Below, piece after piece: positions 3,101-6,220 of a stretch of DNA of 8,855 nt (positions within the stretch are counted from its first letter, which is position 1; each line of letters starts with the position of its first letter). The stretch is from positions 1 to 8,855 of the forward strand of contig CANLGS010000111.1 of NCBI GenBank assembly GCA_947490035.1, in the 5' to 3' direction. The notes beneath the pieces are model-generated. The model did not search any database. It was given only the letters and a program-made list of their open reading frames with translations, and was not told the DNA's origin. A program made the translations under genes and the position numbers. This DNA comes from Gemmataceae bacterium (lineage in GTDB: Bacteria > Planctomycetota > Planctomycetia > Gemmatales > Gemmataceae).

Positions 3101-3217
3101 GAGCAGCGGGCAGTGTACAGTGGGCGGTGAGCAGTGAGGACAAAAGGCAAGAACCGCTCGTCGGTTCGGGTCTTTTGTCTTCACTGTCCACCGCCCACTG
3201 CACACTGCCCGCTGCTC
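3101..3217. repeat. Palindromic element PE4 (GGGCAGT heptad family)
   Basis: The left arm 3101-3146 and right arm 3172-3217 are 46 nt each, with about four mismatches. The left arm reads as in-phase 7-mers from 3101: GAGCAGC, GGGCAGT, GTACAGT, GGGCGGT and GAGCAGT. An inner hairpin GAACCG/CGGTTC (3151-3156 and 3162-3167) sits in the loop. It is the same family as PE1, but more degenerate and with a different inner stem and loop. It separates two co-directional genes. Confidence 0.92.
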
Positions 3218-3311: not shown

Positions 3312-5312
3312 ATGGACGCTCACACGCTCGACCTCCTCGGGTTCGACAAGGTCCGCGCCTTGCTCGCCGAGTACGCCGCCTCGTCGTTCGGGCGCGACCT
3401 CGCACGCCAGATCGAGCCGTCGCTCGACGCCGATGCCATCCGCAAGGAAATATCGCTCACGTCGGAAATGGTGACCGCGTTGGGGCTGAACCAGGCGCCG
3501 CCGTTCGGCGGGTTGCACGACGTTCGCCTGATCGCACGCCGCGCCGCGATCGGCACCATGCTCACCGCCGAGCAACTCATCGAGGTGGCCGAATCGCTCA
3601 ACTGCACCGGGGCGATGTACCGCTACCGGATGCGCCTCGCGGAACACCTGTCCGGCATCATCGACCACCTGTCCGGCATCGAAGACCTCGGCACGGTCGG
3701 CAAGTCCATCGGCGGGTGCATCGACGGCCGCGCCCACGTCCTCGACATGGCGAGTCGCAACCTCGCGGCCGTGCGCCAGAAGCTCTACGACCTCGACGAG
3801 AAGGTGAAGGCGGAGATTCGGCGCCTGCTCCGCGACCCGGAACTACGCAAGATTCTCAGTTATCCGAACGCGACCGTTCACGGCGATCACTACGTTCTGC
3901 CCGTCTCGGTGAACCACCGGCACAAGGTGCAGGGCGTCGTTCACCGCATGAGCGGCACCGGCGAAACGGTGTTCATCGAACCCGCGAGCATCTCCAATCT
4001 GAGCGCCGAGCGCGTGCAACTGAAGGCCGACGAAGACCGCGAAGTGAATCGCGTGCTGCGGCGCTTGAGTAGCGAAGTCGGCCGCGTCGCGAAGCCGCTG
4101 GTGTTCGCCCTCGATGTGATCGCGAAGCTCGACCTGATTACCGCGAAGGCCCGCTACGCACGCGACTTCGGCATGTACCCGCCGGACGTGAACACCGAAG
4201 GCCGGCTCTGGCTCAGGCAAGCAAGACACCCACTCCTCGAAGCGCTCTTCCGCAACGACCCTGCACCGAGCGCGGAGCGCGGAACGCGGAACGCGGAACA
4301 GAAGACGAACGAAGAAACGAAAGCAGCCGACCCACCGGATTCCGATTCTTCCACTCCGCGATCCGCGATCCGCGTTCCGCGCTCCGTTGTGCCGATCGAC
4401 GTGCGGCTGGGGATCGGGTTCAACCTGCTGGTCATCACCGGGCCGAACACCGGCGGCAAAACGGTCACGCTGAAAACCACCGGTCTGCTCTGTCTCATGG
4501 CGCAGTGCGGGATGCACCTCCCCGCGGGCGAAGGAAGTATGGTTCCGGTGTTCCGGCACATCCTCGCGGACATCGGCGACGAGCAAAGTCTGGAACAGTC
4601 GCTCAGCACGTTCAGCTCGCACATCTCGCGCATCGCGTCCATCTTCAAGGTCGCTAACGATCAAAGCTTAATCCTCTTGGACGAACTCGGCTCCGGCACC
4701 GACCCGACGGAAGGCGCGGCGCTCGGCCGCGCGATCCTCGATCAACTCGATACCGTCGGCTGCCGCGCGATCGTGACCACGCACCTCGGCGACTTGAAGA
4801 CGTATGCGTTCAACAACGACCGGGCCGAGAACGGGGCAGTCGAGTTCGACATCGAGACGATGCGGCCGACGTACCGGCTGCACATCGGCCAGTTCGGGAT
4901 GAGCAACGCGCTGAAGATCGCGCGCCGCCTCAAGTTGCCGAAGGAGTTGTTGAGGAAGGCGCACCGTTACCTCAAGAAGCGCGGGGGCCGCACCGGGGAA
5001 CTCGCCCGGCTTCAAGAGTTGCGGCTGGAAGCGGAGCAGGCGAAGGTCGAAGCGCTCGCGGCGCGGCACGACGCGGACCGCGAGAAGGAGTCGTTCGCCC
5101 GCGAGCGCGCCGCGCTCGACAAGGAAGTTACGGACAGGGCCGCGCTTCACGAACTGCGCACGAACCTGAAAACCGGCACCGTGGTGACCGTGCAGCGGTT
5201 CGGCTCGACCGGCAAGGTGATGAAGGTTGACGCGAAGAAGCAGACCGTCACCGTGAGCGTCGGCATCGGCCAGTGGGAAGTGCCGTTCGAGGAGATATTC
5301 CCGATCTCCTGA
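3312..5312 (+). CDS. mutS2: MutS2-family ATPase lacking the Smr domain, with an in-frame repeat insertion
   Basis: MutS2 is a MutS-like ATPase implicated in suppressing recombination and, in Bacillus, in acting on collided ribosomes. This product is 666 residues; the family is usually 750-800. MDAHTLDLLGFDKV is the standard MutS2 opening, so 3312 is preferred over the ATG at 3273 (M14 of a longer reading) and the TTG at 3234, although no clear Shine-Dalgarno precedes it. The core/clamp region runs to about 313 (ARHPLLEALFR). Residues about 316-358 are an insertion encoded by PE5. The ATPase has Walker A TGPNTGGKT at 376-384, Walker B LILLDELGSGTDP with Asp457 and Glu458, and the switch His491 in TTH. 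A coiled coil (about 550-615) and a KOW-like barrel end the protein at FEEIFPIS. No Smr domain follows; PE6 starts within a few bases of the stop. Recognition of the family is secure; function without Smr is uncertain. Confidence 0.94.
   Translation: MDAHTLDLLGFDKVRALLAEYAASSFGRDLARQIEPSLDADAIRKEISLTSEMVTALGLNQAPPFGGLHDVRLIARRAAIGTMLTAEQLIEVAESLNCTGAMYRYRMRLAEHLSGIIDHLSGIEDLGTVGKSIGGCIDGRAHVLDMASRNLAAVRQKLYDLDEKVKAEIRRLLRDPELRKILSYPNATVHGDHYVLPVSVNHRHKVQGVVHRMSGTGETVFIEPASISNLSAERVQLKADEDREVNRVLRRLSSEVGRVAKPLVFALDVIAKLDLITAKARYARDFGMYPPDVNTEGRLWLRQARHPLLEALFRNDPAPSAERGTRNAEQKTNEETKAADPPDSDSSTPRSAIRVPRSVVPIDVRLGIGFNLLVITGPNTGGKTVTLKTTGLLCLMAQCGMHLPAGEGSMVPVFRHILADIGDEQSLEQSLSTFSSHISRIASIFKVANDQSLILLDELGSGTDPTEGAALGRAILDQLDTVGCRAIVTTHLGDLKTYAFNNDRAENGAVEFDIETMRPTYRLHIGQFGMSNALKIARRLKLPKELLRKAHRYLKKRGGRTGELARLQELRLEAEQAKVEALAARHDADREKESFARERAALDKEVTDRAALHELRTNLKTGTVVTVQRFGSTGKVMKVDAKKQTVTVSVGIGQWEVPFEEIFPIS
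4270..4386. repeat. Palindromic element PE5, inserted in frame within mutS2 (NCGCGGA heptad family)
   Basis: The left arm has four 7-mers from 4270 to 4297 (two GCGCGGA, then two ACGCGGA). The right arm has four complementary TCCGCGN 7-mers from 4355 to 4382 plus TCCG. The arms pair perfectly over 18 nt at the outer end (left from 4273, right to 4386) and then with single mismatches; the loop is about 55 nt. The element lies wholly within mutS2 and is translated, with arms giving AERGTRNAE and SAIRVPRS. Those residues interrupt the normally short link between the core domain and the ATPase domain. Confidence 0.88.
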
Positions 5313-5315
5313 TAC

Positions 5316-5453
5316 CAGAAGAGGCAGAAGAGGAGCCGCACGATAAACGCAGAAGAAAGACACGATCCGAGAAAGCAGCAGACTGTTTTCAATACAGTCC
5401 TCTCTTCTCTGATCGTGTCTTTCTTCTGCGTTTATCGTGCGGCTCCTCTTCTG
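5316..5453. repeat. Palindromic element PE6, overlapping the cbiM 3' end
   Basis: The arms 5325-5367 and 5411-5453 are perfect 43-nt reverse complements. Pairing continues with a few more bases after one mismatch, and an inner hairpin GACTGT/ACAGTC lies at 5381-5386 and 5394-5399. The 9-mer CAGAAGAGG occurs twice in tandem at 5316-5333, starting 3 bp after the mutS2 stop. The right arm contains the cbiM stop and its last six codons. Perfect arms suggest a recent arrival or strong selection for pairing. It lies between convergent genes, so a bidirectional terminator role is also possible. Confidence 0.93.
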
Positions 5454-6070: not shown

Positions 6071-6078
6071 TTGGTTTG

Positions 6079-6210
6079 GCCCTCTCCCCTTGCGGGAGAG
6101 GGTGGCGAGGCTTTGCGAGACGGGTGAGGGGTGGCTCAGCAGGTGGGGTAACGTCACCCCTCACCCGACCGGCGAAGCGCCGGCCACCCTCTCCCGCAAG
6201 GGGAGAGGGC
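6079..6210. repeat. Palindromic element PE7 (CCCTCTCCC family, BIME-like)
   Basis: The outer arms 6079-6106 and 6183-6210 are perfect 28-nt reverse complements. Each arm is itself a hairpin, with CCCTCTCCC and GGGAGAGGG nine-mers (6080-6088 with 6094-6102, and the mirror copy at 6187-6209). Inner arms CGGGTGAGGGGTG (6121-6133) and its complement (6155-6167) are also perfect. Between them, the right side has a small hairpin CCGGCG-AAG-CGCCGG (6169-6183), while the matching left side has diverged. Two inverted copies of a hairpin unit is the layout of bacterial BIME/REP elements. It fills most of the 150-bp gap between two co-directional minus-strand genes. Confidence 0.92.
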
Positions 6211-6220
6211 AAAGAGAAGG

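Follow-up and report, generated by a model that had tools for sequence, protein, structure and literature searches.

How does an inverted repeat come to lie in frame within the gene of a core protein, and what does it become there? The question is raised by mutS2 in an 8,855-nucleotide stretch of Gemmataceae DNA, which we analysed as a whole and call the window (its own genome is coded G000, relatives G001 upward, and extracted loci carry L numbers). The gene occupies positions 3312–5312 of the forward strand, with 666 codons plus a stop, from an ATG at 3312 to a stop codon ending at 5312. A Pfam scan detected PF00488 (MutS_V, ATPase domain V) at E 7e-33 and a PDB MutS2 matched at E 5e-118, identifying a MutS core with domain V, while the MSSS domain (PF20297) scored under its cut-off. 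Many MutS2 proteins carry a C-terminal Smr domain, which the Pfam scan at E 0.001 did not find in the product of 3312–5312. Close homologues include proteins of Gemmata sp. G18 and Frigoriglobus tundricola.

The original prediction placed here a roughly 129-nt in-frame stretch with inverted CGCGGA-rich arms, between segments that are nearly adjacent in MutS2 proteins, and our analysis bore out each part of that description. Positions 4257–4385 of the forward strand are exactly 43 codons of a frame that is open from 3312 to 5312, and they encode residues 316–358 (D316–S358, DPAPSAERGTRN...IRVPRS) between RHPLLEALFR and VVPIDVRLG. When aligned with the chain of the solved MutS2 7qv3, presumably from Bacillus subtilis, these two segments are one residue apart: the first aligned block stops at residue 312 of the chain and a second starts at 314, and the query skips from 309 to 356. 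Inverted-repeat and tandem-repeat analysis placed a left arm of CGGAACG-type heptads at 4273–4297 and a right arm of inverted heptads at 4362–4386 (forward-strand positions), 25 nt long, 96% complementary and separated by 64 nt; an alternative pairing gives wider arms of 41 nt at 83% complementarity (4265–4305 and 4347–4387). Each arm is a tandem array of a 7-nt unit (CGCGGAA ×4.1 and TCCGCGA ×4.6), and the inverted-repeat score of 27 lies well above that of 40 base-shuffles (mean 8.3, maximum 16).

We lean towards a reading in which this part of the MutS2 linker, a pair of inverted 7-nt arms kept in frame and confined to one lineage, was made in place by template switching and forms a predicted disordered loop. 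The heptad CGGAACG is open on both strands and, since a 7-nt repeat runs through all three frames, an array without stops in one frame has none in the other two. The 43-codon stretch is predicted to be translated into a floppy, disordered loop, and we infer that the linker residues remain in the MutS2 protein. A structure model of the whole protein, too poor overall for placing the linker, had a mean pLDDT of 57.2, with the linker blocks lowest at about 28–36.

To see how the stretch is distributed we turned to relatives, where a MutS2 or MutS-like match was present in 99 of 99 genomes searched, the window's own included. Among 50 extracted loci, minus the truncated L075 (and with no usable mutS2 from G018), the gap between anchors ran from 18 nt in G011 to 243 nt in G056; in protein terms, the linker measured 8 to 81 residues among the 105 of 120 homologues that parsed, the other 15 falling outside this range estimate. 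CGGAAC-type arms occur in mutS2 of G000, G013, G008, G010, G003, G016 and G007, and another form in G014. In G005 the arms are of GGCGGAA type (score 24 against a shuffle maximum of 13). G034 holds a palindrome that is not built of heptads (27 against 11), and the long GGAACTC-type palindrome of G056 scored 60, without a shuffle comparison; L066 was scored without shuffles. Pairing is imperfect in several carriers, with scores of 14–17 in G013, G007 and G014, and the linkers of G011, G015 and G006 are short and arm-less. G001 and G004, which sit nearest to G000 on the MutS2 tree (support 100/99), have different linkers. The expected absence from sister species was thus confirmed for the window's palindrome, but not as plain absence of sequence, as many relatives carry a different stretch at the site. 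Neither of the findings named in advance as fatal to the prediction, an insertion shared across the order or arms with no copies elsewhere in the genome, was encountered: 15 further contigs of the genome carry related DNA. An ancestral MutS2 feature was rejected, the stretch being missing from 7qv3 and from part of the genus.

On the MutS2 tree, the CGGAAC label (assigned by eye, with 4 of 26 rows unlabelled) needs six changes, at least five of them forced by well-supported branches, and a count as low arose in 165 of 500 label shuffles. Because the label changes this often and clusters no more than shuffled labels do, repeated gain or loss of the arms is likely, the change count not separating gains from losses, and a single simple event no longer fits. 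Among seven carriers pN/pS was 0.48 for the linker and 0.12 for its flanks, and for this reason we regard the linker as a loosely constrained, tolerated spacer, for which "domesticated" is too strong a word. The centre between the arms (DPPDSDSS, 4329–4352 on the forward strand, its last 6 nt within the wider right arm) may be older than the arms. In four of six carriers the low-complexity centre, excised by hand, was closer to arm-less linkers than its own shuffles were (1–6 of 300 shuffles as good), and in the other two it was less distinct (18 and 42 of 300). This resemblance suggests that the centre is the old host linker, a weaker case than the one we describe next.

In a UbiD homologue, whose gene allows the best check of the centre, the segment between the arms in G000, DPDITRLLSSL, aligns with the arm-less orthologs HPDITRLCDSL (G004) and APDVIRLVEHL (G016), and because of this alignment we identify it as host protein. 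No complete hairpin was inserted there, and the idea that the element "landed" as a unit is not supported as it stands; what survives of the palindromic element proposed for the MutS2 linker is its lineage restriction, its frame and its membership of a dispersed repeat class, and not its arrival in one piece. The heptads of the UbiD arms also differ between genomes, being CGGA(T/A)CG in G000, GGCGGAA in its sister G001 and GGAATGC-type in G003, where the arms match each other over 36 nt at 97%. In G015 the usual GP(K) is replaced by GRPLP, whose DNA is perfectly complementary over 17 nt to the downstream heptad array, and we read this as an overwriting of host sequence. Matched arms around unchanged local sequence, the pattern expected of template switching, are therefore present in UbiD and only suggested in MutS2. 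The host-conserved segment between the UbiD arms and the differing heptads of sister species point to arms built in place, probably by template switching, and away from the insertion of a single hairpin.

Template switching is reportedly a proposed creator of hairpins. In the mechanism we envisage, template switching during replication would copy an array of CGGAACG-type heptads and its adjoining DNA onto each other, such that the second arm is made, or made to match, by the switch. Which genic copies persist would then depend on selection, both for an intact frame and for linkers that tolerate the addition. This reading draws on the UbiD host centre, the heptad types of sister species, the matched arms of G003, the GRPLP of G015, and the presence in 27 of 115 G000 palindromes of a mirrored outer arm extending at least 6 nt past the shared core. 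These are end states, from which we infer the process, and not an observed event.

The heptad arms belong to a large population of palindromes. Searched against its own genome, the mutS2 stretch gave 27 rows of matches (self rows included; 40 of 63 candidates were scored). Its copies have related arms, and a few of the matches run on into part of the centre, but centres differ between most copies. An intergenic member of the heptad family matched 15 of 19 genus genomes searched, most often G014 (74 rows) and G003 (72 rows; both strands and arms are counted), and had no match in G004, G011, G012 and G017. Copy number of this family was associated with its presence in mutS2 (Mann-Whitney p 0.014, 18 genomes, uncorrected for kinship and with the mutS2 copies themselves counted). 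Overall, G000 held 117 palindromes in 363.6 kb (the 20 longest contigs, at most 20 kb of each), four of them within coding frames by a codon-score criterion; there were 24 in 400 kb of G008, 22 and 18 in 160 kb each of G013 and G016, 7 in 80 kb of G010, and none in 160 kb of base-shuffled sequence. The majority in G000 belong to non-heptad families, and among periods 5–12 only period 7 reaches a self-match of 0.7 in palindrome arms (10 of 113). A comparison of arm identity within and between palindromes (0.967 against 0.666) was set aside as biased, the arms having been chosen for complementarity.

Six genes have linkers that are palindromic repeatedly: mutS2, dnaA, the ubiD homologue, a cheA-like gene, an ABC ATPase and a membrane protein. 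Palindromes occupy 25 of 106 ortholog linkers of these genes compared with 9 of 820 control coding windows, and as the genes were selected for their G000 repeat arms we also counted without the G000 rows, giving 20 of 100. A 7-nt periodic stretch was present in 32 of the 106 linkers and in 7 of the 820 controls, and the palindromes belong to several unrelated families. Length is divisible by three in 24 of the 25 palindromic linkers and stop codons are absent from all 106; the fraction in frame and open expected from G000 palindromes outside coding frames is 0.177, and since orthologs share descent, binomial values on the 24 of 25 are not probabilities. The three off-frame linkers among the 106 are those of the G010 ABC ATPase (L147), G016 CheA (L189) and G005 UbiD (L281), which are either real breaks or assembly errors at hairpins; in the last of these, the host segment is gone between two perfect 18-nt arms. 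A stricter palindrome test was passed by only 4 of 18 mutS2 and 1 of 19 dnaA linkers, G000 DnaA failing it.

The genes differ in what occupies the linker. Further in-frame heptad cases in G000 are DnaA and a UbiD-family protein, and in the DnaA locus L005 (G000:C94) heptad arrays precede the ATPase domain at a place where G003 has a 32-nt, 91% palindrome. The ABC linker shows several families of palindromes or repeat arms over 16 genomes when inspected by eye, with 10 of 16 passing the palindrome test; the CheA linker is palindromic in 3 of 17 genomes (of 19; L186 and L192 had no usable linker), in two families. The membrane-protein linker has heptad arms in G000 and none in either sister, G004 or G001; in that linker G015 bears its own set of heptad arms. 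A comparable pattern was seen in what we take to be an M16-like peptidase, whose linker holds a CCCTCC-type palindrome in G008 and GGA-type heptad arms in G010 and G013. Pfam supports the identity of UbiD, DnaA, the CheA-like kinase (Hpt, HATPase_c, CheW, receiver), the ABC ATPase and an AAA helicase; for L084, the membrane protein, no Pfam family matched at E 1e-5. The count of 106 leaves out a G018 UbiD fragment (L282) and two other paralogues from the membrane-protein search (L134, L135), and L056 was below the length needed for the palindrome test.

The dispersal of related copies would also sit well with a mobile hairpin, a miniature element like a REPIN or a Rickettsia palindromic element (RPE), that entered mutS2 as one unit and was retained where it was in frame, and in-frame REPs and RPEs have already been published. 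Many palindrome families exist in these genomes, some sharing loops and one nested in the loop of another (L081, 18235–18402); shared loops are what movement of whole hairpins predicts and count against an origin in place, and a heptad family with 72–74 match rows in G003 and G014 spreads by some route. Y1 transposases offer a candidate partner, with five matches in G000 and 80 in all, distributed over 16 of 19 genus genomes, and a palindrome lies within 260 nt at 12 of the 20 loci examined. Yet none of these 20 loci (of the 80 matches) has a heptad-periodic arm within 1200 nt, the UbiD centre is host protein, and a target duplication could not be defined: among G008, G010 and G013, or G000, G001 and G004, we found no clean empty site or target duplication, the spacers having diverged or containing another palindrome. 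We consider a mobile origin of the mutS2 stretch a serious possibility that we nevertheless doubt. Because of the shared loops, the nested hairpin and the palindromes close to Y1 genes, some of these palindromes are probably REPs or REPINs of the ordinary kind. Three Y1 transposase genes (L226, L232 and L243, from G000, G003 and G013) are flanked by CACAGGG-type palindromes in a REP/RAYT-like arrangement.

The recurrence of palindromes in inter-domain linkers could instead mean that the hairpin works at the level of mRNA, for example by making ribosomes slow down between two domains. That is very unlikely, as several mutS2 carriers have arms that pair imperfectly or have decayed, and the stricter test finds the palindrome missing in 14 of 18 orthologs. 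Removal of the stretch from the product by splicing or ribosome bypass, which would mean that it is not protein, is extremely unlikely: removal does not require the open frame that 24 of the 25 palindromic linkers keep, and we rejected it, having found no supporting evidence. Fragmentation of the G000 assembly (754 contigs, 68% complete) raises the prospect of an artefact, whose chance we put near zero and which we rejected on finding homologous linkers in the well-assembled G013, G008 and G016 (3, 1 and 2 contigs).

Returning to template switching in place, the recurrence in other genes permits a broader and more tentative proposal, that Gemmata-type genomes may act as a "palindrome factory". 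Heptad arrays would seed sites, template switching would mirror an arm over host DNA, arms would change heptad in concert, and, heptads of this kind being free of stops in all frames of both strands, the products would be kept as new disordered linkers in core proteins (MutS2, DnaA, CheA, UbiD), with the same linkers rewritten repeatedly. If this is true, repeat DNA repeatedly turns into protein at known sites in one genus, where arm-less, two-armed and replaced states coexist, and transposition and in-place writing of coding palindromes could be tested against each other directly in cultured Gemmata strains. It would also call for caution, as planctomycete protein linkers may stem from repeats instead of being conserved.

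Heptad arrays of the Beggiatoaceae are reportedly of unexplained origin and spread. The same holds for the degenerate 7-nt arrays of Xanthomonas and Nostoc, which share with the window a 7-nt tandem unit and form 70 inverted pairs in one Xanthomonas genome and 75 in another; their units, however, are G-rich (GGGANTN) and were studied as G-quadruplex formers, and the available portion of that report does not describe in-frame palindromes in conserved linkers (PMC4692102). RPEs are genome-dispersed palindromes, some in frame within genes as in the window (PMC10969869), and are described as families of about 150 bp with a conserved peptide, whereas here the arrays are degenerate and centres differ between copies. 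REPs and REPINs, inverted pairs that are mainly intergenic and sometimes intragenic, including in DNA repair genes, are present in Planctomycetes (PMC3733652). The window's genome likewise has a Y1 transposase, as in REP/REPIN systems with RAYT, but the 25-nt mutS2 arm at 4273–4297, as read from its sequence, has no GTAG or CGTC tag, and heptad arms were missing from the 20 Y1 loci. MITEs are recognised by terminal inverted repeats with a target-site duplication; at mutS2 there are inverted arms, and comparison of relatives yielded no clean empty site. In yeast, template switching at inverted repeats homogenises arms and alters coding sequence (PMC8604942); the cases described there are short events, whereas ours would involve arrays tens of nucleotides long in bacterial core genes, by a process reconstructed from its products. 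Genic tandem repeats of Borgs yield disordered regions and preserve frame (PMC9879509), with units divisible by three, whereas a unit of 7 keeps frame only through total length. Nematomorph mitochondria carry inverted repeats within functional genes (PMC6649704), where both arms encode conserved protein, in contrast to the variable linker encoded here. Bacterial genes with palindromes in frame, heptad arrays in inverted pairs and template switching within coding sequence thus each have precedents. New are the combination of the three and the repeated rewriting of the same linkers; in the open-licence literature we found neither this combination nor any description of heptad palindromes in genes of planctomycetes.

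Besides mutS2, the window's 8.9 kb contain five more long intergenic palindromes of different families. They lie at 817–918 (AGTGGGC heptads), 2491–2537 (the GTGGCACAGGCT family), 3101–3217 in the spacer that separates mutS2 from its upstream neighbour (56-nt arms, 88%), 5325–5453 between mutS2 and cbiM (49-nt arms, 98%) and 6076–6213 (the CCCTCTCC family, 31-nt arms, 97%), and an imperfect sixth is visible by eye at about 1261–1311. The outer arm at 2491–2537 includes the final bases and stop of a methyltransferase gene (GTCTGA), mirrored in the opposite arm, so that host sequence lies within an arm. Elsewhere, L078 (18–159) holds a composite palindrome whose junction is mirrored as well, and in L077 (7441–7544) a GGGGGCGTAAGCCCCC palindrome lies in frame in the G000 AAA helicase, directly ahead of its ATPase domain.
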